DNA of 64,000 nt, from the NCBI RefSeq assembly GCF_020907405.1, contig NZ_JAJJOE010000009.1, forward strand, positions 124,001 through 188,000, in the 5' to 3' direction. The position numbers and the translations under genes are program-made. Source of the stretch: Arthrobacter sp. zg-Y769 (GTDB lineage: Bacteria; Actinomycetota; Actinomycetes; Actinomycetales; Micrococcaceae). The notes beneath the pieces are model-generated. The model did no database searches and was not told where the DNA came from. It was given only the letters and a program-made list of their open reading frames with translations. Of the stretch, positions 1,793-15,390 are shown piece after piece (position 1 is the first letter of the stretch; each line of letters opens with the position of its first letter).

Positions 1793-1810
1793 TATTGCCA
1801 GCCAGCAATA
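1793..1810. promoter_or_regulatory. Perfect inverted repeat upstream of the catalase gene (candidate operator or leader hairpin)
   Basis: TATTGC-CAGCCA-GCAATA is a perfect 6-6-6 inverted repeat that ends 26 bases before the catalase ATG and just ahead of its ribosome binding site. It may be an operator for a peroxide or iron regulator, or a short 5'-UTR hairpin. No regulator is encoded next to it. Confidence 0.35.
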
Positions 1811-1836
1811 GACCTCACCACCGAGGAGCACACGTT

Positions 1837-3510
1837 ATGACAGACGCAGAACAGCAGCATCCCGCTACCGGCCAGAACGACGCCGGAGACCCGAAGACCC
1901 TCACCACACGCCAGGGACACCCGGTCTACGACAACCAGAACACCCGGACGGTGGGAGCCCGTGGCCCGGCCACGCTGGAGAACTACCAGCTCCTCGAGAA
2001 GATCAGCCACTTCGACCGTGAGCGGATCCCCGAGCGCGTAGTCCACGCCCGCGGTTTCGTGGCGTACGGCGAATTCGAAGCGTCCGGCAAGTGGGGCGAC
2101 GAGCCCATTGCCAAGTACACCCGCGCCAAGCTCTTCTCCGAGCCCGGCAAGAAGACCGACGTCGCTATCCGTTTCTCTTCCGTGATCGGCGGACGTGACT
2201 CTTCGGAGGCCGCCCGCGATCCCCGCGGCTTCGCCATCAAGTTCTACACCGAAGACGGCAACTGGGACATGGTCGGCAACAACCTGGGTGTCTTCTTCAT
2301 CCGCGACGCCATCAAGTTCCCCGACGTGATCCACTCCCTGAAGCCGGACCCCGTCACCTTCCGCCAGGAACCGGCCCGCATCTTCGACTTCATGTCGCAG
2401 ACCCCCGAAGCCATGCACATGCTGGTAAACCTCTTCAGCCCGCGCGGCATCCCCGCGGACTACCGCCACATGCAGGGCTTCGGCGTGAACACCTACCGCT
2501 GGGTCAACGCCGCCGGTGAATCCAAGCTGGTCAAGTACCACTGGCTCCCGCAGCAGGGCGTGAAGTCCCTGACCGAGGAAGACGCCGCGAACATCCAGGC
2601 CAACGACCTGGGTCACGCCTCGAAGGACCTTTACGAGGCCATCGAACGCGGCGACTACCCCAAGTGGGACCTGTACGTTCAGCTCATGGATGACCACGAT
2701 CATCCGGAACTCGACTTCGACCCGCTGGATGACACCAAGACGTGGCCGGAGCAGGAGTTCGAGCCCAAGTACGTGGGCACCATGACCCTGAACCGCAACA
2801 TCACGGACCACCACAACGAAAACGAGCAGATCGCTTTCGGTACCGGTGTCCTGGTGGACGGGCTGGACTTCTCCGACGACAAGATGCTCGTTGGCCGTAC
2901 GTTCAGCTACTCCGATACGCAGCGCTACCGCGTCGGCCCGAACTACCTGCAGCTTCCGGTGAACTCCGCGAAGAACGCACGGGTCGCCACCAACCAGCGC
3001 GGCGGCCAGATGTCCTTCGGCACCGATCTCGCGCCGGGCCAGAACCCGCACGTGAACTACGAGCCGAACATCACCGGCGGACTGCAGGAAGCAGCAAAGC
3101 CGGAACAGGCCGAAGTCGGCCCCGAGCTTGAAGGCCGCCTGACCCGCGCCCGCCTGCCCCGCACGAACGACTACATGCAGGCCGGCCAGCGCTACCAGCT
3201 GATGGAGCAGTGGGAGAAGGACGACCTGGTCGCCAACTTCATTGCCAACGTCGGCCAGGCTGCCCGCCCGGTCCAGGAGCGCATGCTCTGGCACTTCTAC
3301 ATGACCGATGACGAGCTGGGTGCACGCGTCGGCGAGGGCCTGGGGATCAGCCTGGACGAGATCAAGGATCTCGGTCCGCTGGCCACCCAGACGCTCAATG
3401 AGGAAGAAACCGAGCGGATGAAGAACCTGGGCCATAACGGTCCCCGGAACGTCGAAGGCCTCACCATGACCCACTGCGTGCCCAACGAGCACGTGGTAGT
3501 CACCCGGTAA
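1837..3510 (+). CDS. katA: Catalase (heme, KatA type)
   Basis: A 557-residue monofunctional heme catalase that converts hydrogen peroxide to water and oxygen in the cytoplasm. Visible landmarks are the distal histidine region [14 protein letters not shown], the distal asparagine region [17 protein letters not shown], and the proximal heme-ligand region [17 protein letters not shown]. The N-terminal tail of about 45 residues is polar. The length is somewhat above the small-subunit clade (about 480-500 residues) because of a C-terminal extension ending NEHVVVTR. The ATG at 1837 has GAGGAG 8 bases upstream. The gene is monocistronic: divergent from the PPOX gene and closed by a strong hairpin terminator. 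Confidence 0.95.
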
Positions 3511-3522
3511 AGCACGACACGT

Positions 3523-3573
3523 AAACAACGACGGCGCGGGCGCACTTCGGTGCGTTCCGCGCCGTCGTTGTTT
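3523..3573. terminator. Strong bidirectional hairpin terminator after catalase
   Basis: A perfect 17-bp stem (3523-3539 paired with 3557-3573) starts AAACAACGACGG and ends CCGTCGTTGTTT. The enclosed bases form a second small hairpin with a TTCG loop. Its A/T-rich ends give a short T run on both strands, so it can serve catalase (+) and the SDR operon (-). It belongs to a family of ACGACGGCG terminators in this window. Confidence 0.85.
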
Positions 3574-3587
3574 AAGGCCGGAGCCGG

Positions 3588-4367
3588 TTATACGGGCGTG
3601 ACGTAGGCACCGGAAATGCCGCCGTCCACGAGGAAGGTGCTGGCGGTGATGAACGAGGAATCATCGCTGGCCAGGAACGCGACGGCGGCGGCGAGCTCCT
3701 CCGGTTCGGCGAAGCGGCCAAGCGGAACGTGGACCAGCCGCCGGGCGGCACGCTCCGGATCAGCGGCGAAGAGTTCCTGAAGCAGGGGAGTGTTGACCGG
3801 ACCCGGGCAAAGGGCGTTGACCCGCACCCCCTGCCGGGCGAATTCGACGCCGAGTTCCCGGCTCATCGCCAGCACTCCGCCCTTGGACGCGCTGTAGGAA
3901 ATCTGTGAGGTGGCGGCGCCCATGACGGCCACAAACGACGCGGTGTTGATGATGGACCCCTTGCCGGCTTCAAGCATGTGCGGCAACGCGTATTTGCAGC
4001 AGTAGTAGACGGACGTGAGGTTCACGTCCTGCACCCGCCGCCAGGCATCCAGACCCGTGCTCAGGATGGACCCGTCCTCCGGCGGGGAAATGCCGGCGTT
4101 GTTGAACGCTATGTCCACGCGTCCAAAGGTTTCGCGGGCAACCTCATAGAGCTGCTTCACCTCTTCCTCGACCGTGACGTCGACGGAGACAAAAAGTCCT
4201 CCCACCTCATCGGCTGCGGCCTTCCCCGCGGCAGGATCAATGTCCGCCACGACCACGTGCGCGCCTTCCGCGGCCAGCCTGCGCGCACTGGCCCGGCCTA
4301 TGCCGCTGCCGGCACCGGTGACGACGGCGGTGCGCCCCTGAAGCCGGTTTGAGACCACTTCGAGCAT
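3588..4367 (-). CDS. Short-chain dehydrogenase/reductase; candidate gamma-glutamylethanolamide (alcohol) dehydrogenase
   Basis: A 259-residue classical SDR. The NAD(P)-binding motif TGAGSGIG lies at residues 17-24, NNAG follows, and the catalytic YSASK motif lies in the middle third. VVADIDP after strand 2 carries an acidic residue, which favours NAD over NADP. The ATG at 4367 has GGAAGGAA upstream. It is the last gene of the five-gene operon, 22 bases after the aldehyde dehydrogenase. From context I infer that it oxidises the hydroxyl of gamma-glutamylethanolamide to the aldehyde taken by the next enzyme. Sequence alone shows only a generic FabG-like dehydrogenase. Confidence 0.75.
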   Translation of the reverse strand: MLEVVSNRLQGRTAVVTGAGSGIGRASARRLAAEGAHVVVADIDPAAGKAAADEVGGLFVSVDVTVEEEVKQLYEVARETFGRVDIAFNNAGISPPEDGSILSTGLDAWRRVQDVNLTSVYYCCKYALPHMLEAGKGSIINTASFVAVMGAATSQISYSASKGGVLAMSRELGVEFARQGVRVNALCPGPVNTPLLQELFAADPERAARRLVHVPLGRFAEPEELAAAVAFLASDDSSFITASTFLVDGGISGAYVTPV

Positions 4368-4389
4368 CGGGTTCCTTCCGTAGCGGCCG

Positions 4390-5745
4390 TCAGCGGCCGG
4401 TGCTGATGAAGACATTCTTGGTTTCGGTGAAGGCATCCAGGGCATCCGGTCCCAGCTCCCGGCCCAGGCCCGATTGCTTGAACCCGCCGAACGGGGTGGC
4501 GTACCGCACCGAGGAGTGCGAATTCACCGAAAGGTTTCCCGCCTCCACACCGCGGGCGACCCGCAGCGCGCGGCCGATGTCCGAGGTCCAAATGGAACCG
4601 GAGAGGCCGTAGGCTGAGTCATTGGCCAGCCGGACCGCATCGGCTTCGTCCCGGAAGGGGACGACGGCGAGGACCGGCCCGAAGATTTCCTCACGGAGTG
4701 CCCGGCTGTCCCGCTGCGGGATGAGGACTGTCGGGGGAAACCAGAAACCCGGCCCGTCCGGAGCCTTGCCGCGGAACGCGACCTCTGTCTCCTGGACGAA
4801 TCCGGCCACCCGGTCCCGCTGGGCGGCGGAAATCAGCGGGCCCATCCGCGTGGACTCCTGCGCCGGGTCCCCGACTTCCAGCGCCGAGATCCCGGGTTCA
4901 AGCAGCTCAAGGAAACGGTCAAAGACAGTGGCCTGCACCAGTACCCGGGACCGAGCACAGCAGTCCTGGCCCGCGTTGTCGAAAGCCCCGGCGGGTGCGG
5001 CTGCCGCAACGGCGGGCAGGTCGACGTCGTCGAAGACAATATTGGCGCTCTTGCCGCCCAGTTCCAGGGTGAGGCGTTTGATCTGCTCCGAGCAGCCCGC
5101 CATGATCTGCCGGCCGACCTCGGTGGACCCGGTGAAAACCACCTTGCGCACGGCCGGATGCGTGACGAAGCGTGCCCCGATCACGGAGCCTTTGCCGGGA
5201 AGGACCTGGAACACCCCCTCGGGGATGCCTGCCTCCAGGGCGAGCTCGCCCAGGCGCAGGGCGGTCAGCGGCGTCAGTTCGGCGGGTTTGAGCACCACGG
5301 TGTTGCCGGCGGCCAGCGCCGGAGCGAAGCCCCAGGCAGCGATCGGCATGGGAAAGTTCCACGGAACTATCACGCCGACCACACCGAGGGGTTCATGGAA
5401 GGTGATGTCGATGCCGCCGGCTACCGGAATCTGGGCTCCGGTATGCCGCTCGGGGGCGCCGGCGAAGTAGGCCAGCACGTCCCGGACGTTGCCGGCCTCC
5501 CAGCGCGCGCTGCTGATGGTGTGCCCGGCGTTGGCGACTTCCAGCGCGGCCAGGTTCTCCGTGTCCGCGTCCACGGCGGCGGCGAAGCGGCGAAGCAGCA
5601 GGGCCCGGTCCGACGCCGCCGTGTTCCGCCAGGACTCGAATGCGGCTGCCGCCGCAGCAATGGCGGCATCCGTTCCGACGCGGGAAACCGGTTCGACTGC
5701 GGTGAGGACTTCCCCGGTTGCCGGGTTCAGGATAGGGGTGTTCAT
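4390..5745 (-). CDS. Aldehyde dehydrogenase (NAD(P)+), amine/ethanolamine catabolic operon
   Basis: A 451-residue aldehyde dehydrogenase. PWNF lies at residues 128-131, the catalytic glutamate is in ELGGK (Glu229), and the nucleophile is the first cysteine of GQDCCARSR (Cys262). EEIFGPV follows toward the C-terminus. It is slightly shorter than the usual 480-500 residues because the N-terminus is trimmed. The start ATG overlaps the stop of the amidotransferase gene (ATGA), so translation is probably coupled. In the proposed pathway it oxidises gamma-glutamyl-aminoacetaldehyde to gamma-glutamylglycine. A PuuC-like role on gamma-glutamyl-aminobutyraldehyde is the alternative. Confidence 0.85.
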   Translation of the reverse strand: MNTPILNPATGEVLTAVEPVSRVGTDAAIAAAAAAFESWRNTAASDRALLLRRFAAAVDADTENLAALEVANAGHTISSARWEAGNVRDVLAYFAGAPERHTGAQIPVAGGIDITFHEPLGVVGVIVPWNFPMPIAAWGFAPALAAGNTVVLKPAELTPLTALRLGELALEAGIPEGVFQVLPGKGSVIGARFVTHPAVRKVVFTGSTEVGRQIMAGCSEQIKRLTLELGGKSANIVFDDVDLPAVAAAAPAGAFDNAGQDCCARSRVLVQATVFDRFLELLEPGISALEVGDPAQESTRMGPLISAAQRDRVAGFVQETEVAFRGKAPDGPGFWFPPTVLIPQRDSRALREEIFGPVLAVVPFRDEADAVRLANDSAYGLSGSIWTSDIGRALRVARGVEAGNLSVNSHSSVRYATPFGGFKQSGLGRELGPDALDAFTETKNVFISTGR

Positions 5746-6515
5746 GGGCGGATTCCTCCAAGGTCTGCCACCGGCGTGCTCCTGCGCGCCCGATAGTCGG
5801 CGGCCGCGGTGATGAAGCCGGCGAAGAGCCGCAGGTCCGCCGGGTCCTGCTCGGGGTGAAACTGCACACCCAGCACCCAGCCCCGCCCCACCTGTTCAAT
5901 GGCTTCCACAGTTCCCTCCGGTGCCACCGCCGTGACGCGGAGCCCGCGGCCCAGATCGGCGATGCCCTGGTGGTGGTAGCAGGGGGCGGTGCCGGCACCG
6001 CCGAGCAGGGACTCCATGATGCTGTCCGGCGCCGTGGTGAAGCTGACCTCGCCGAAGACGCCGGGGGCGGGCCGGTAGTCTGCCTCCGCACGGATATCCG
6101 GAAGGTGCTGGATCAGGGTCCCCCCGAGCGCGACGTTGAGTATCTGCGCACCGCGGCAGATGGCCAGCAGCGGCATGCCGGCCGCCAGGGCCGCCGTGGT
6201 CAGGGCGAGGTCGTGGCTGTCCCGTACGGGCTGGCTGAGTGTCAGCGGATGCGGATCCTGGCCGTAGAGGGAAGGGTCCACGTCGGTGCCGCCTGCGGTC
6301 ACCAAACCGTCGAGTCCGTCCAGCACCCGCACGTCCGTTCCGACCGGGGGAAGCAGCACGGGCACTCCGCCGGCAGCGGTAATCGCTGCCAGATAGCTGC
6401 CGGGGATGAGCGCGGCGTCGCCCTCCCACACGCCCCACGCCGCCGGCTGGTAATAGGTCGTGAGCCCGATCAGCGGACGGGGCGTCCCGCCAACGTCAGA
6501 GCCGCTCAAAACCAC
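5742..6515 (-). CDS. Class I glutamine amidotransferase-like gamma-glutamyl hydrolase (PuuD family)
   Basis: A 257-residue GATase1 protein of the peptidase C26 group that contains E. coli PuuD. The nucleophile motif is LLAICRGAQILNVALGG and the catalytic His-Glu pair is in VQFHPEQDP. PuuD cleaves gamma-glutamyl amides to glutamate plus the free amine or amino acid. Here the inferred substrate is gamma-glutamylglycine. I prefer the GTG at 6515, with GGGAG seven bases upstream; a TTG at 6548 is possible. Either start overlaps the end of the synthetase gene, and the gene's own stop overlaps the aldehyde dehydrogenase start. This is tight translational coupling within the operon. Confidence 0.82.
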   Translation of the reverse strand: MVLSGSDVGGTPRPLIGLTTYYQPAAWGVWEGDAALIPGSYLAAITAAGGVPVLLPPVGTDVRVLDGLDGLVTAGGTDVDPSLYGQDPHPLTLSQPVRDSHDLALTTAALAAGMPLLAICRGAQILNVALGGTLIQHLPDIRAEADYRPAPGVFGEVSFTTAPDSIMESLLGGAGTAPCYHHQGIADLGRGLRVTAVAPEGTVEAIEQVGRGWVLGVQFHPEQDPADLRLFAGFITAAADYRARRSTPVADLGGIRP

Positions 6516-7863
6516 GCTTGCGCTCCCAGTCGGTGACGGCCGATTCAAAGGCGGCCAGTTCGACGTCGGCCGCGTGGACGTAGTGCGCCACCACTTCGTC
6601 GCCGAAAGCCTTGCGGGCTATTTCGCTGCCCGCCAGGAGGTCGCGGGAGGCCCGCAGCGTGGTGGGCAGCCGGTCCGCGCCGCCGGTGTAGGCATTGCCG
6701 ACGGTGACCGGTTCCAGGGGCAGCCGGTTTTCAATGCCGTGGATCGCCGCAGCTATCAGGGCAGCGGTGGCCAGATAGGGGTTGAGGTCTCCGCCGCCCA
6801 CCCGGTTCTCGGTGCGCAGACCGTTGCCGTGGCCCACCACACGCAGGGCACAGCTGCGGTTGTCCAGCCCCCAGGCAATCGCGGTCGGTGCGAAACTGCC
6901 CTCGACGAAGCGCTTGTAGGAGTTCACGTTCGGTGCCAGGAAGTAGGTCAGCTCCTTCAACGCCGAGAGCTGGCCGGCGATGAAGTGTTCCATGAGCGGG
7001 CTGAAGCCGTGTTCGCCGTCGCCGGAGAGGACGGATTCGCCGTCGAGGCCCCGCAGGCTGAAATGGATGTGGCAGGAATTGCCTTCGCGTTCATTGAACT
7101 TGGCCATAAAGGTCAGGCTCTTGCCCTGCTGGTCGGCGATTTCCTTGGCACCCGTCTTGTAGAAAGAGTGGTTGTCGCAGGTGCGCAGGGCCTCGTCAAA
7201 ACGGAAAGTCACTTCCTGCTGGCCGAGGTTGCACTCACCCTTGGATGATTCCACCACCAGCCCGGCACCTTCCATCCCGGTACGGATGGCGCGGATCACC
7301 GGTTCCAGGCGGGAGGTGGCCAGCAGCGAGTAGTCCACGTTGTACCTGCTGGCCGCGTGCATGCCGGTGTATTCGCGTTCCCACGCGGAGGTGTAGCTGT
7401 CATCAAAGAGGATGAACTCCAGTTCGGTGCCGATGTGGGCCCGGTAGCCGAGGGATTCCAGGCGGTCGATCTGGTGCCGGAGGATCTGGCGGGGGGACGG
7501 ACCCAGCGGGGTGCCGTCGGTCCGCAGGACATCGCACTGCACCATTGCGGTTCCGGGCAGCCATGGAACTCGGCGCAGGGTGGACGGATCCGGGCGCATC
7601 ACCAGGTCCCCGTAGCCGTTTTCCCAGGACGAGGACTCGTAGCCGTCGATGGTGTTCATCTCCACGTCCACGGCCAGCAGGTAGTTGCAGCCCTCGGCGC
7701 CGTGCGGGAAAACGTCCTCCAGGAAGGACCGCGCTCCGCAGCGCTTGCCCTGCAGCCGGCCCAGGTGATCGGTGATCGCCACCACCACGGTGTCGATGCT
7801 CCCGGCAGCAGTGAGCTTCCGAAGTTCCTCGATGGTCAGTCCGTTGGGGGATTGCTCGCTCAT
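6496..7863 (-). CDS. Glutamine synthetase-family gamma-glutamyl-amine ligase (GlnA4/PuuA-like)
   Basis: A 455-residue glutamine synthetase-fold protein. Visible are the N-terminal beta-grasp region (VVVAITDHLGRLQGKR), the glutamate/metal motif around ELEFILFD, NSCHIHFSL in the ATP site, the KRFVEGSFAPTA region and LRVVGHGNGLRTENR. It lacks the adenylylation loop signature of true GlnA. Family members join glutamate to amines: PuuA uses putrescine and Streptomyces GlnA4 uses ethanolamine. The neighbouring ethanolamine-type permease and lack of a putrescine transporter favour ethanolamine here (inference). The ATG at 7863 has GGAGAG upstream. It lies 49 bases downstream of the permease gene. 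Confidence 0.85.
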   Translation of the reverse strand: MSEQSPNGLTIEELRKLTAAGSIDTVVVAITDHLGRLQGKRCGARSFLEDVFPHGAEGCNYLLAVDVEMNTIDGYESSSWENGYGDLVMRPDPSTLRRVPWLPGTAMVQCDVLRTDGTPLGPSPRQILRHQIDRLESLGYRAHIGTELEFILFDDSYTSAWEREYTGMHAASRYNVDYSLLATSRLEPVIRAIRTGMEGAGLVVESSKGECNLGQQEVTFRFDEALRTCDNHSFYKTGAKEIADQQGKSLTFMAKFNEREGNSCHIHFSLRGLDGESVLSGDGEHGFSPLMEHFIAGQLSALKELTYFLAPNVNSYKRFVEGSFAPTAIAWGLDNRSCALRVVGHGNGLRTENRVGGGDLNPYLATAALIAAAIHGIENRLPLEPVTVGNAYTGGADRLPTTLRASRDLLAGSEIARKAFGDEVVAHYVHAADVELAAFESAVTDWERKRGFERL

Positions 7864-7912
7864 GCTCTCTCCACTTCCGAAGGTAGGTGCTGCACTGTCC
7901 CGCTAGGGCGGG

Positions 7913-9346
7913 TCATCTGATTTCGGTTTCGGCCTGGCTGATCTGGGCGAACTCCTCTTCCGGCGCGCTCGCGACCAGCCGGTGGCGGCTGTAGAACCAG
8001 AAGTACGCCAGGGCCGCCAGGAAGATCCCCGCGGTGATCGAGGCGGCCAGGACGTCCACCACGAAGGTCGCCACCACGGCGACCACGGCCAGGACCAGTG
8101 CGATGCCGGTGGTGGCCACACCTCCCGGAGTGCGGTAGCCGCGCGACAGCTGGGGTTCGCGGCGGCGCAGCACGATGTGTGAAAGGTTGAGCAGGACGTA
8201 GGACACGGTGGCGCCAAAGACGGCAATGTTGATCAGCAGCCCGCCGTCGCGGGTGAAGGCCGCCAGGAGGAAGCCGATGGTTCCGGGGACGATCAGCGCC
8301 ATGTACGGGGTGCGCCATCTGGTGGTCAGTGACATCCAGCGCGGCAGGTAGCCGGCCCGGGAGAGGGCGAAAAGCTGGCGGGAGTAGGCGTAGACAATCG
8401 AGAAGAAGCTTGCCACCAGTCCCGCCAGTCCGGCGTAGTTCACGAAGTCGGCAAGCAGGGTGTTGCCGCCGTAGGCAATCCGCAGCGCTTCGGGCAACGG
8501 ATTGTCGGAGGTGCTCATCGCTTCCGCTCCGGCGGCACCCGGCACCAGGACCAGCATCAGGGCCCCGAAGACGAGCAGGATGCCCATGGCGGCGATGATT
8601 CCGCGGGGCATGTCCTTTTTCGGATCCGACGTCTCCTCGGCGGCCAGCGGCACGCCTTCGATCGCGAGGAAAAACCAGATGCCGTACACCAGGGCTGCCA
8701 CGGCACCGGAGAGGCCCATCGGCAGGAAATCGCTGGCGCCGGAGGTGGCAGAGGGAACGATGTCAAAGAGGTTTGCTGCGTTGAACTTGGGCACCAGCCC
8801 CACCACCGTAGCGACGAGGGCGAGAACGGCGATGGCCGTGATAACGAACATCAGCTTCAAGGCCTCACCCACTCCGCGGATATGGATTCCGATGAAAACG
8901 GCGTAGGTCCCGAGATAGACCGGCCAGGAATTGGTCAGCCCGAAGAGGCCCAGTGCTTCGATGTAGCCGCCGATGAACGTGGCAATCGCTGCCGGTGCCA
9001 CTGCATATTCAATAAGCACCGCCATCCCGGTGGCAAAGCCGCCGAGCGGGCCGAGTGCCCGGCGTGCGAATCCGTAGCCGGCTCCCGCCGTCGGAAGTGT
9101 GGAGGACAGCTCGGCCAGGCCGAAGACCATGCAGGTATACATGATGCCCATCAGGACAAAGGCGATAAGCAGTCCGCCCCAGCCGCCCTCCGCCAGCCCC
9201 AGGTTCCACCCCGAGAAGTCTCCGGAGATGACGTAAGCGACGCCTAGGCCGGCCAGCAGGACCCAGCCCGCCGCTCCGTGCTTGAGTTGCCGGTGGCTCA
9301 TGTAGTTCTCGTCGACGTTGGTGTAGTCGACCCGGGATTTAGCCAT
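7913..9346 (-). CDS. APC-superfamily permease, ethanolamine permease type
   Basis: A 477-residue amino acid-polyamine-organocation transporter with about 12 hydrophobic segments. The N-terminal part (RQLKHGAAGWVLLAGLGVAY, then VISGDFSGWN) and AELSSTLPTAGAGYGFARRA match what I know of the ethanolamine permease (eat) family. AAEETSDPKKDMPRG after the seventh segment is characteristic of APC transporters. The ATG at 9346 has AAGGA upstream; the frame is open further but has no better start. It is the first gene of the operon and divergent from the FadR-type regulator. Predicted role: proton-coupled uptake of ethanolamine or a similar small amine. Confidence 0.8.
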   Translation of the reverse strand: MAKSRVDYTNVDENYMSHRQLKHGAAGWVLLAGLGVAYVISGDFSGWNLGLAEGGWGGLLIAFVLMGIMYTCMVFGLAELSSTLPTAGAGYGFARRALGPLGGFATGMAVLIEYAVAPAAIATFIGGYIEALGLFGLTNSWPVYLGTYAVFIGIHIRGVGEALKLMFVITAIAVLALVATVVGLVPKFNAANLFDIVPSATSGASDFLPMGLSGAVAALVYGIWFFLAIEGVPLAAEETSDPKKDMPRGIIAAMGILLVFGALMLVLVPGAAGAEAMSTSDNPLPEALRIAYGGNTLLADFVNYAGLAGLVASFFSIVYAYSRQLFALSRAGYLPRWMSLTTRWRTPYMALIVPGTIGFLLAAFTRDGGLLINIAVFGATVSYVLLNLSHIVLRRREPQLSRGYRTPGGVATTGIALVLAVVAVVATFVVDVLAASITAGIFLAALAYFWFYSRHRLVASAPEEEFAQISQAETEIR

Positions 9347-9449
9347 GTCGGGGTCCTTCTCGAAGCGGAGCGGGGGCGGAGAGGAGATGGGCAGCAAGCG
9401 GGTCCGGCGCGCCCAATGGCCTGATTTCAGTCCATACGAGGTGGGGTTC

Positions 9450-9478
9450 AGTTTCAGCGGTGGGTGATGATCCGTCAA
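9450..9478 (-). promoter_or_regulatory. Candidate promoter of the permease-ligase-amidotransferase-dehydrogenase operon
   Basis: On the minus strand TTGACG (9473-9478) is followed after exactly 17 bases by GAAACT (9450-9455). The -35 is good and the -10 is imperfect. It lies about 104 bases upstream of the permease ATG, leaving room for an operator of the divergent FadR-type regulator. Confidence 0.4.
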
Positions 9479-9527
9479 GGGTGGTGTCCAGGGAATCCCG
9501 GGCGGCGGGTTGGTCCCGGCGGCGGGC

Positions 9528-9533
9528 TAGACT
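9528..9533 (+). promoter_or_regulatory. -10 hexamer of a leaderless transcript (FadR/GntR regulator)
   Basis: TAGACT is followed by six bases and then the ATG at 9540. The expected transcription start falls on the start codon and no Shine-Dalgarno sequence is present. No convincing -35 is visible. Confidence 0.5.
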
Positions 9534-9539
9534 GCCGGG

Positions 9540-10256
9540 ATGGAACAGCAGCCCTTCGGACACGGAGCATTGACGCCCCGCCCGGTCCGCCGGGGCAATG
9601 CCTTCGAGGAGACCGTGGAGCGGCTGCTGCAGGGATTGAAGCTCGGCATTTACGCTGCGGGGGAGAAACTGCCGGCGGAACGCGAACTGGCAGAACAGCT
9701 GGGAGTATCCCGGGCTACTCTGCGGGATGCCCTTGCCGAGCTGCAGAAGGCGGGCTATCTCCAGTCCAGGAGGGGGCGGTACGGCGGAACATTTGCAGTT
9801 GACGTCCTCCCGGAGCCGGCCGCGTTGCCGGGCGCGTTGGATCCCCTGGAGGTTGAGGACGTGCTGCTGTTCCGGTCCGTAGTGGAACCGGCCGCGGCAC
9901 GGCTCGCGGCGCAGGCGTCCCTGACCGGCTCGGCGAGGTTGCATCTGCTCGGGGCGCTCGCCGAAGTGGATGAGGCAGGCAAAGACACTTTCCGGCCCAA
10001 GGATTCCCGGTTCCACATCGCCGTCGCGGAGTTGGCCGGTTCCCCCAGCCTGGTTGCCGCGGTTGCTGACGTCCGGTCCCGGGTCAGCGACCTGCTGGAT
10101 CTCATCCCGCTGTTACAGACGAACCTGGACCACTCCCAGGCACAGCACCGCGGACTCGCTGAGGCAATCCTGCGTGGCGATGCCGGCGGTGCGGAGGCCG
10201 CCGCCGTCGCTCATGTGGAGGGCACCGCCCGGCTGCTGCGGGGCTTCCTTATCTAG
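9540..10256 (+). CDS. FadR-subfamily GntR transcriptional regulator
   Basis: A 238-residue regulator. The N-terminal winged helix (residues about 15-80) contains KLGIYAAGEKLPAERELAEQ and GVSRATLRDALAELQKAGYL. The C-terminal all-helical FCD effector domain contains VVEPAAARLAAQAS, DSRFHIAVAELAGS and HRGLAEAILRGD, with the metal-binding D-H...H pattern of that family. It is divergent from the five-gene amine operon and is the obvious candidate for its effector-sensing regulator, probably a repressor released by the amine or a gamma-glutamyl intermediate (inference). It is probably translated from a leaderless mRNA. Confidence 0.85.
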   Translation: MEQQPFGHGALTPRPVRRGNAFEETVERLLQGLKLGIYAAGEKLPAERELAEQLGVSRATLRDALAELQKAGYLQSRRGRYGGTFAVDVLPEPAALPGALDPLEVEDVLLFRSVVEPAAARLAAQASLTGSARLHLLGALAEVDEAGKDTFRPKDSRFHIAVAELAGSPSLVAAVADVRSRVSDLLDLIPLLQTNLDHSQAQHRGLAEAILRGDAGGAEAAAVAHVEGTARLLRGFLI

Positions 10257-10262
10257 AGCCCC

Positions 10263-11858
10263 CTACTTTTCCCAGGGCGCCCGGATCGGAAAGTACTTCT
10301 CGAGGAAATCCGTCACCCGTTCGGCCCGTTCGCCTGCGGGGACCTCCGGGAAGCTTCCGTCATTGAGGCAGAACATGTCCTTGTGGCGTTTGGCGAGCAG
10401 CCGGTCCATCGCCTTCAACCCTGCGTAGCTGGTGGTGTCAATGTAGCGAACCTTCGCCGTCTCCTGGGTGACCGCCCGGCCGGTGAGCAGCGCGTAGTAG
10501 TGGTAGAGGGAGTTGGTCACGGAGATGTTGTCCTTGGCCCGGAAGGTACTCGCGGCCGTGGCGGCGAACTCCCCGGGGAATTCCTCCTCCATTTCCAGCA
10601 AGACGCTGCGGCGCAGGGGAGCCGCGGTGTGTTCCAGATGGCGGGTGGTGACCCGGCCGAAACGCTCCCAGAGCAGCCGCCGGTTCACCCTGGCAGCGTT
10701 TTCGAAACCGCTGCGCTCGGGGTCATTGGCGCCCAGTCCGATCCGGGTGCTGGCCTCGATGAACTTGGTGATTCCTCCGGGGGAGAAGAACATGTCGGGG
10801 GCCACCGGACGGCCAAAGAACATGTCGTCATTGGAGTACAGGAAGTGCTCAGCGAGTCCCGGGATGTGCTGCAGCTGGGCCTCGACCGCCTGGGAGTTGT
10901 GCGTGGGCAGCACGGACGGGTCCTTGAAATGCTCCGCTGCCGGCACGAAGGTCACGGACGGGTGCTCGGCCAGCCAGTCCGGCCGCGGGGAATCCGAGGC
11001 AATGAAGATGCGGCGGATCCAGGGCGCAAACATGTGCACCGAGCGGAGGGCGTATTTCAGCTCGTTGATCTGCCGGAAGCGGGCCTCGTGGTCATCGCCT
11101 TCGCCCACCACGGCGCCGCTCATCCGGGCGGCGCGGGCGGCCTGGAACTCCGGGGAGCTGCCGTCCACCCAGGAGAACACCAGATCGATGTCGAACCGGA
11201 TGTCCGTGGCGTGGTCGGCAAACATGTTCTCGATGGTCGGCCAGAGCAGCCCGTGCTTTTCCACGGTGCCGCGGACCACCTCGGCCGCCGGCAGTGTTCG
11301 GCGGGTCAGGGAGTTCTCCACGGGCAGGGTGATGTTCTCGCCTGCCAGGTCCCAAAGCTCAATCTGCACCCCGGCCGAGCCGGAGATCAGCAGATTGGTG
11401 CCGGTGAATGCCCTCGGACGGTACACACGGATGATCCGCGCCTTCTCGCTGGAGGAGAGGCTGCCGTCGGCAATCAGCAGGATCCGGTTCTTCTTGGTAT
11501 CGACGGTGCGGGAGTAGAAGGGCTCGTCCCGGCAGGCCTCAACCATGGCCTTGCGCAGCTGCTCGCGCATCCGGAGGTCGACGGCGATGACCGGACGCTG
11601 GTCATTGCCGCGGACCAGAAGGTAGGTCACACCGGCGTCGTCAAGGACCCGGCGGACAAAGAGGAGGTCCTCGACCATGGCCTCGTGCGGTGTGAGCCCG
11701 GTGTCCATAAGGGCCAGGCGGCCCTTGACCAGGGCTACATTCGGCCGCTGCTCCACCCGGTGGAGCACCGCAGGGGAAGCGGCCTGCAGGGTCTCCGGTT
11801 CCGGATCCGGTTCCGGGGCTCCGAAGTAAACATCATGTTCGGCAGCTGTATCGGTAAT
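10263..11858 (-). CDS. Stealth-family sugar-phosphotransferase (capsule-type), possible ATT start
   Basis: A Stealth protein of 531 residues from the ATT at 11858, or 501 from the GTG at 11768. The family order is visible: IDLVFSWVDGS (CR1), RFRQINELKYALRSVHMFAPWIRRIF with ASDSPRPDWL (CR2), HNSQAVEAQLQHIPGL and YSNDDMFF (CR3), and DNISVTNSLYHYYALLTG (CR4). Such enzymes transfer sugar-1-phosphate in capsular or teichoic-like polymers, like the GlcNAc-1-phosphotransferase catalytic region. The only ribosome binding site is AGGAGG at 11864-11869, 5 bases from an in-frame ATT; an in-frame stop lies just before it. The GTG has none. The extra 30 residues read as an acidic, proline-rich stretch. 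No capsule locus is adjacent. Confidence 0.85.
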   Translation of the reverse strand: MTDTAAEHDVYFGAPEPDPEPETLQAASPAVLHRVEQRPNVALVKGRLALMDTGLTPHEAMVEDLLFVRRVLDDAGVTYLLVRGNDQRPVIAVDLRMREQLRKAMVEACRDEPFYSRTVDTKKNRILLIADGSLSSSEKARIIRVYRPRAFTGTNLLISGSAGVQIELWDLAGENITLPVENSLTRRTLPAAEVVRGTVEKHGLLWPTIENMFADHATDIRFDIDLVFSWVDGSSPEFQAARAARMSGAVVGEGDDHEARFRQINELKYALRSVHMFAPWIRRIFIASDSPRPDWLAEHPSVTFVPAAEHFKDPSVLPTHNSQAVEAQLQHIPGLAEHFLYSNDDMFFGRPVAPDMFFSPGGITKFIEASTRIGLGANDPERSGFENAARVNRRLLWERFGRVTTRHLEHTAAPLRRSVLLEMEEEFPGEFAATAASTFRAKDNISVTNSLYHYYALLTGRAVTQETAKVRYIDTTSYAGLKAMDRLLAKRHKDMFCLNDGSFPEVPAGERAERVTDFLEKYFPIRAPWEK

Positions 11859-14595: not shown

Positions 14596-15390
14596 CTAGA
14601 CCGATCCCGGCCGTGGCACCGCAAACAGCGTCCGGGGATCCTGGAGAACCGCAGGGTAGGCGAACGCTGACCGGGAAATCTCCCCGCTCAGTTTCACCTG
14701 TCGAACCGCCGTATCGTTCGTTAGTTCCACTGGCCCGGCATGGCCAAGCAGCAGGCGGGTCCGGTCAGCCGGAGAAAGAACAGCCACCGTATCGCCGTCG
14801 TCCATGTCCTCCAGCAGCCGCACCAACTGCCGGCCCTTCTTTCCCGTGATGGGCGTGCCCTTCACGGAAAGCATCGGCAGGACAATCTCGGCAGCATCGC
14901 CGTCGGGCATCGCACGCGCCACCCACAACCCTTCGCCCGGAGCAGGATCCACCGGATCGGGAACGTCGGCGGGGGAGGGCCAGACATACGGCAGGCCGCC
15001 GTCGGTATCCGGGAACAGGGGCCCATAGACCTCCGGAGACTTCTCGATGAGGTTGGACCGGTGGCTGCGGTGCAGCTCCTCGTCGCCTATCCAGGAGGGA
15101 AGGTCGACGTCGGCCTCCGCAGCCTCCGGGGCAAACTCCAGGATCTGTTCCCGGACGGTATCGGCATGCCCGCGGGCAATCCATTCATCCGTCATCGCCA
15201 GCCCGTAGGCGGTGAGCGCCGGCACGAAGCCCTTCCACATGAGCAGGGCGGGGTGGCGCTGCCAGCCGTAATCGGGAACCACCAGCCCGCGCAATAACTG
15301 CAGGGTCTCCACCCGCTGCTTGCCAAGCCGCGCCTGGTCCAGGACGGCGGCGCTGCGGGCGAAGCTCGGATACGGAAGGAAGGTCTGCAC
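14596..15390 (-). CDS. MSMEG_6728-family protein (pyrimidine-dimer glycosylase-like N-terminus)
   Basis: A 264-residue protein. Its N-terminal region (MQTFLPYPSFARSAAVLDQA, then RLGKQRVETLQLLRG) matches the MSMEG_6728 family. That family resembles phage T4 endonuclease V, whose N-terminal residues are catalytic for pyrimidine-dimer cleavage. Conserved-looking DYGWQRHPALLMWKGF and IGDEELHRSHRSNLIEKSPE follow. The C-terminal third (KKGRQLVRLLEDMDDGD) is more variable. A role in DNA repair is suggested by the family resemblance only. It is convergent with the exported-protein gene and 71 bases downstream of the DUF1684 gene's stop. Confidence 0.75.
   Translation of the reverse strand: MQTFLPYPSFARSAAVLDQARLGKQRVETLQLLRGLVVPDYGWQRHPALLMWKGFVPALTAYGLAMTDEWIARGHADTVREQILEFAPEAAEADVDLPSWIGDEELHRSHRSNLIEKSPEVYGPLFPDTDGGLPYVWPSPADVPDPVDPAPGEGLWVARAMPDGDAAEIVLPMLSVKGTPITGKKGRQLVRLLEDMDDGDTVAVLSPADRTRLLLGHAGPVELTNDTAVRQVKLSGEISRSAFAYPAVLQDPRTLFAVPRPGSV

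Follow-up and report, generated by a model that had tools for sequence, protein, structure and literature searches.

Gene content and conservation of the operon

The window analysed here is a 64,000-nt stretch of DNA from the soil actinobacterium Arthrobacter sp. zg-Y769, and all coordinates are positions within it. Five genes lie on its minus strand between 3588 and 9478. Going inward from the regulator, they encode a permease, a glutamine synthetase (GS)-like ligase, a hydrolase, an aldehyde dehydrogenase (ALDH) and a short-chain dehydrogenase/reductase (SDR), and a GntR-family regulator with an FCD domain is placed divergently to them (Table 1). We read this locus, with high confidence, as a GlnA4-type, cobalamin-independent ethanolamine utilisation operon. 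The six-gene arrangement with a divergent regulator proposed in a preliminary description of the window was recovered in our analysis, where the open reading frames have the same coordinates and strands and the Pfam and NCBIfam identities agree.

The same description had the genes overlapping, which holds for only some of them. The hydrolase and ALDH frames do share 4 bp (5742-5745), and the overlap between ligase and hydrolase depends on the start codon chosen. The SDR/ALDH overlap is doubtful because the listed SDR start is probably too early. The SDR family model starts at residue 31 and at least 35 of the 80 homologous loci described below align only from about there, so the true start may be the internal Met27 at about 4367 (259 aa). 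The listed start of the permease (TTG, 9478) is probably too early as well, as MAKSRV..., at about 9346, fits the family model better.

Table 1. Genes and candidate regulatory elements of the operon (positions in the window).
Feature	Position	Strand	Evidence
SDR-family dehydrogenase, candidate gamma-glutamylethanolamide dehydrogenase	3588..4445	-	adh_short_C2 PF13561 6.2e-68; NCBIfam PRK06057 497.7 bits, cut-off 404
Aldehyde dehydrogenase, candidate gamma-glutamylacetaldehyde dehydrogenase	4390..5745	-	Aldedh PF00171 3.4e-155
PuuD-like class-I amidotransferase hydrolase, candidate gamma-glutamylglycine hydrolase	5742..6548	-	Peptidase_C26 PF07722 9.1e-55
Ligase, probable GlnA4-type gamma-glutamylethanolamide synthetase	6496..7863	-	Gln-synt_C PF00120 3.6e-94
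APC-family transporter, ethanolamine permease model	7913..9478	-	TIGR00908 510.9 bits, curated cut-off 381.75
Candidate operator for the FCD regulator (ATGGCCTGATTTCAGTCCAT, + strand)	9416..9435	.	18-bp core 9417-9434, 11/12 to TGGWCT-N6-AGWCCA
Candidate operon promoter	9449..9478	-	-35-like TTGACG (9478-9473), spacer 18, -10-like AAACTG (9454-9449)
GntR-family regulator with FCD domain, probable operon repressor	9540..10256	+	PF00392 4.2e-18, PF07729 1e-16

A total of at least 592 stretches in genome contigs matched the ligase, 577 of them encoding a relative, and the best 80 (61-89% identical) are referred to here as the named loci. Ligase, hydrolase, ALDH and SDR were found together, within 6 kb of the ligase, in 77 of these loci and all six genes in 59, a grouping that exceeds chance. 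Within the same distance no match was found for the ALDH in two loci, the SDR in one (L094, at a contig end), the regulator in ten and the permease in sixteen, leaving 70 loci with a regulator match. The operon is therefore genuine and conserved, and judged from its sequence it is very probably functional.

The active-site residues checked in the hydrolase, ALDH and SDR are conserved wherever the match covers them. In the SDR, S170, Y184 and K188 were found in 78 of the 80 named loci and N115 and D68 in 79, the remainder lying outside the match; D68 follows strand beta-2, a position that we take to favour NAD over NADP. The ALDH residues N130, E228, C262 and C263 are present in all 78 loci with a match, and the enzyme scores under the NCBIfam cut-offs for aminobutyraldehyde dehydrogenase (452.7/615) and BADH (417.8/668.6). 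The hydrolase residues C131, H231 and E233 are invariant (80/80), and the PDB relatives of this protein include PuuD (6vtv, 6.9e-23).

Ligase residues, permease linkage and the choice of substrate

The residues named for Streptomyces coelicolor GlnA4 (SCO1613), which were taken from the text of PMC6529630 and not from an alignment of SCO1613 itself, are all present in the ligase. The metal residues E147, E149, E210, E217, H265 and E352 correspond to E156, E158, E219, E226, H274 and E359 of GlnA4, with a constant offset of +9 that becomes +7 for the last of them. E260 and G261 correspond to E269 and G270 (the N264/G265 site), and F324 to F331 (the E327 flap site). The six metal residues, E260, G261 and F324 are invariant in all the named loci, while D73, which aligns with D50, varies and is kept in 57 of the 80.

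These pocket residues, together with family cut-offs, led us to reject two other readings of the ligase. According to the first, it is a plain glutamine synthetase acting on ammonia, or a methylamine ligase, and stands among its neighbours by chance. The GS catalytic domain would suit this, but at the 264 and 327 sites all 80 named loci have E and F, as against N and E in E. coli GlnA. The ligase also misses the curated cut-offs for type I glutamine synthetase (TIGR00653, 224.9/429.15) and type III glutamate-ammonia ligase (TIGR03105, 219.6/469.6), the genome holds two other GS genes, and the gene neighbourhood is conserved; we consider this reading extremely improbable. The second takes the operon for a polyamine (putrescine) pathway of the PuuA/PuuC/PuuD-like kind, with which it shares a GS-like ligase and a hydrolase of the PuuD-type family. 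It is very improbable, since the scores for gamma-glutamylputrescine synthetase (185.4/650), PuuC (339.8/850) and the PuuD equivalog (92.2/266 bits) are all under the NCBIfam cut-offs and the pocket has E260 and F324 against A277 and Y340 in E. coli PuuA. Furthermore, the operon contains no PuuB-type amine oxidase, and its SDR suits an alcohol and not an amine.

The linkage between permease and ligase was followed in two genome samples, with thresholds of E <= 1e-100 for the permease and E <= 1e-120 for the ligase; the permease counts are lower bounds, taken from up to 10 scored candidates per genome in the family sample and 5 in the phylum sample. At least 26 of the 149 family genomes have the permease, and in each of them the same contig also carries the ligase, with the matched stretches 72-214 bp apart. 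The ligase was found in 32 of the 149, six of which have no permease among the scored candidates (hypergeometric probability of the association 1.2e-23, relatedness ignored). EutB was found in none of the 149 genomes. The absence of a EutBC ammonia-lyase noted in the preliminary description was borne out for EutB by a search of the whole host genome (completeness 100), which gave no match while an E. coli control was positive; EutC was not searched separately. In the phylum sample, the permease was found in at least 43 of 296 genomes, 32 of them above the curated TIGR00908 cut-off. In 27 genomes the ligase is no more than 3 kb away from it, and in two (G402 and G465) EutB is, with both of the latter permease copies also exceeding the cut-off. 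These ligase-adjacent and EutB-adjacent copies indicate that the TIGR00908 family accompanies both ethanolamine routes.

Ethanolamine as the probable substrate is thus well supported, although indirectly, by the permease-ligase linkage, the GlnA4 residues and the absence of EutB. On the same grounds, the earlier proposal of glutamylation, two oxidations and hydrolysis without cobalamin appears to be the best reading of the locus.

A number of observations weigh against this reading. F324 is necessary but not diagnostic of GlnA4, since F also occurs in 11zs and 5dm3, the PDB chains closest to the ligase, and both of these carry A at the position of E260; 5dm3 is presumably the Chromohalobacter salexigens ligase. 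The invariance of residues is partly a matter of selection, as the named loci are the best ligase matches. In the phylum sample, 16 of the 46 permease matches are near neither the ligase nor EutB, and the ligase (55 genomes) and EutB (14 genomes) never co-occur, a mutual exclusion that is weak (P = 0.05). Finally, the ligase is patchy within the genus, intact in six of 28 relatives and broken in one, which makes the operon an accessory trait. An apparent decayed copy was observed in a same-genus relative (G013 C1:3200158-3201505), where the ligase is split into three matched pieces and one of these contains an internal TGA.

The transporter also counts against a single substrate. Besides the sixteen named loci with no permease match, identity is at least 55% in 20 loci, 36-41% in 42 and 24-25% in two. 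Two of the permeases at 36-41% were scanned and scored 334.3 and 331.7 bits, under the TIGR00908 cut-off. For the loci with no match, frames upstream of the ligase were chosen by length and GC content at the third codon position (GC3); in all, two sets of ten proteins were scanned. Five permeases from these loci score best with TIGR00907, under that cut-off. The region upstream of the ligase encodes an APC permease domain in L052 and a secretory lipase in L048; no frame was picked there in L041, and in L050 no transporter was seen in the frame scanned. The Streptomyces permeases are stated in PMC6529630 to be dissimilar to characterised Eat or EutH, so that the name 'ethanolamine permease' rests on the TIGR00908 model and one growth experiment; the permease of one Streptomyces locus (L100) passes that model with 477.9 bits. 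As the transporter varies, the substrate could vary between lineages.

Four plasmid clusters (L116-L119) were examined out of 319 plasmid records in which the ligase had a match. On the conjugative plasmid of Arthrobacter sp. U41 (L116 1042-6312), the ligase, hydrolase, ALDH and SDR are present, and an amidase and an inositol-monophosphatase-family gene replace the permease, which again tells against a fixed substrate. These two enzymes may be feeders that free ethanolamine bound in acylated or phosphorylated form, or they may be a sign of another substrate there. A choline-kinase-family gene was observed near them. A different arrangement was found on the Paenarthrobacter plasmid pYJN5-2 (L117 3912-16658), which carries two copies of a set of ALDH, class-III aminotransferase and GS-like ligase together with three copies of 5-oxoprolinase PxpA. 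With these neighbours its ligase (51.7% identical) was set aside as belonging to a different gamma-glutamyl-type system.

The variation in transporters also bears on the possibility that the same chemistry serves a different amino alcohol or a small amine (alaninol, 1-amino-2-propanol, 3-aminopropanol or methylethanolamine), with ethanolamine as a side substrate. An alcohol and aldehyde dehydrogenase pair would suit any primary amino alcohol, and the U41 plasmid suggests that feeder compounds can differ. However, the permease in the window passes the ethanolamine model and the copies in the family sample always adjoin the ligase. Among the amines tested, GlnA4 shows specificity for ethanolamine according to PMC6529630 (Fig. 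8 legend), and the operon genes include no oxygenase for isopropylamine- or ethylamine-type substrates. We therefore judge this alternative improbable and retain ethanolamine as the likely substrate. For an isopropylamine route with an IpuC-type ligase, which we also considered, the accompanying oxygenase is absent from the operon.

The divergent regulator and a candidate operator

Seven regulator-operon intergenic regions were aligned, and all seven contain an invariant TTGAC, followed by a spacer of 18-19 and A.ACT, with a palindrome immediately downstream of these elements. A stricter sigma-70 scan found no promoters in 3400-10400. The first operator pattern, TGGACT-N6-AGTCCA, was derived from these seven regions, six of which are named loci. 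Among the 17 remaining loci with a divergent regulator, it scored at least 11/12 in four and at least 10/12 in eight; the corresponding numbers in 400 random windows of 380 bases were two and nine.

The pattern was then widened post hoc, after the first results on the same loci, by allowing A or T at two positions (TGGWCT-N6-AGWCCA). At 11/12 or better this wider pattern was found in 16 of the 23 divergent loci, many of the positive loci being close relatives, and in 10 of the 17 that were not used for discovery. The nulls gave 13 such windows among 2000 random ones and 3 such shuffles among 2300. A score of only 8 was obtained for L047, and the same for Streptomyces L100, L101 and L106, where the regulator adjoins the ligase. 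In the 280 bases that precede the ligase, no score of at least 11 occurred in any of the 48 loci that have their regulator elsewhere, or in any of the nine with no regulator match. The operator claim is thus restricted to the part of the group in which the palindrome is present.

In S. coelicolor, deletion of EpuRI permitted glnA4 expression with ammonium (PMC6529630), and a repressor role for the FCD regulator would be in line with this. The term GntR appears nowhere in that paper.

Three other genes of the window were also annotated. A catalase gene (1795-3510, +) runs convergently towards the operon at its 3' end. On the opposite side, a gene for a Stealth-family protein with CR1-CR4 present (10263-11768, -) ends 7 bases from the regulator stop; Stealth proteins are typical of sugar-phosphate transfer onto surface polymers. 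A 264-aa protein (14596-15390, -) has a pyrimidine-dimer DNA glycosylase domain (PF03013) in its first 77 residues only.

Proposed route and relation to known pathways

We infer the following route. Ethanolamine would be imported by the permease and joined by the ligase to L-glutamate at the expense of ATP, giving gamma-glutamylethanolamide. The SDR would oxidise the alcohol of this intermediate to gamma-glutamylacetaldehyde and the ALDH would convert the latter to gamma-glutamylglycine, NAD being the probable cofactor of both enzymes. The PuuD-like hydrolase would then release glutamate, which is recycled, and glycine, a source of carbon and nitrogen. The FCD regulator is predicted to repress the operon through the palindrome just downstream of the -10 element and to be released by an effector, which may be ethanolamine or a glutamyl intermediate.

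The closest known system is the Streptomyces glnA4 cluster (SCO1610-SCO1615; Krysenko et al. 2019 mBio, PMC6529630). The Fig. 2 legend of that paper lists a short-chain dehydrogenase, an aldehyde dehydrogenase, GlnA4, a regulator, a putative ethanolamine transporter and a glutamine amidotransferase, and the complete route as far as glycine and glutamate is predicted in its Discussion; PMC9397018 repeats the same ethanolamine route. The preliminary description called for a comparison with this locus, which revealed the same gene set and predicted reactions as well as the named ligase residues at constant offsets. In the excerpts of PMC6529630, the S. coelicolor experiments cover GlnA4 (in vitro and by knockout), the repressor (by knockout) and, more weakly, a permease (by heterologous growth), and the SDR, ALDH and hydrolase steps are predictions there and here alike. 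The hydrolase is described as a formylglutamate-amidohydrolase member in the Discussion and as a glutamine amidotransferase in the Fig. 2 legend; the one in the window belongs to Peptidase_C26 and was matched at 43-47% in Streptomyces L100, L101 and L106. These three loci have the six genes in the order of the legend. The layouts differ in that the five genes of the window run in the same direction from the regulator-permease gap, whereas in the Streptomyces loci the regulator, permease and hydrolase lie on the strand opposite to ligase, ALDH and SDR.

A proteobacterial gamma-glutamyl ethanolamine pathway is described in the excerpts of PMC10132767 for Phaeobacter sp. MED193, and work on C. 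salexigens is cited there and in PMC6529630. The intermediates are the same, with a ligase, a gamma-glutamylethanolamide dehydrogenase, an aldehyde dehydrogenase and a gamma-glutamylglycine hydrolase, but Phaeobacter has a TRAP transporter and an RpiR regulator in place of the APC permease and FCD regulator found here. Of the remaining plasmid clusters in our analysis, the one from Paracoccus (L118) has a Phaeobacter-like layout, with N-formylglutamate amidohydrolase, TRAP genes, ligase, ALDH and an iron-containing alcohol dehydrogenase. The one from Ruegeria (L119) has the same enzymes, and within the stretch shown it contains neither TRAP nor RpiR genes. From these two clusters, the actinobacterial SDR and PuuD-like hydrolase appear to be a non-orthologous replacement.

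The E. coli Puu pathway shares with the operon the logic of gamma-glutamylation and a PuuD-like hydrolase, but it involves the amine oxidase PuuB and a diamine substrate, and the Puu family cut-offs are not reached here. EutBC uses B12 chemistry to convert ethanolamine into acetaldehyde and ammonia. This system shares its substrate with the proposed route, and a TIGR00908 permease stands beside EutB in the two genomes mentioned above, but EutB was not found in the host genome.

The preliminary description considered that an SDR and a dedicated hydrolase would complete a pathway only partly described. This part of it is not supported, as the gene set was already listed and every step predicted in PMC6529630 in 2019, and as a discovery the operon is accordingly modest. 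What our analysis adds is the apparent SDR/PuuD-like replacement, the transporters that vary with lineage and the candidate operator in part of the group, with no literature search having been aimed at the replacement or the operator. There is perhaps an even chance that gamma-glutamyl ethanolamine catabolism is one exchangeable module, in which SDR and PuuD-like hydrolase replace the proteobacterial iron alcohol dehydrogenase and N-formylglutamate amidohydrolase, TIGR00908 permeases serve either EutBC or GlnA4, and an FCD repressor acting at TGGWCT-N6-AGWCCA controls lineages with the divergent layout. This idea is weakened by the post hoc widening of the pattern and by the statement on Eat in PMC6529630.

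With this operon, a pathway studied experimentally in S. coelicolor is extended to a wide variety of actinobacteria; gene linkage provides independent evidence on the likely substrate, and there is a concrete candidate operator. In addition, the predicted SDR, ALDH and hydrolase steps become testable from one compact operon.

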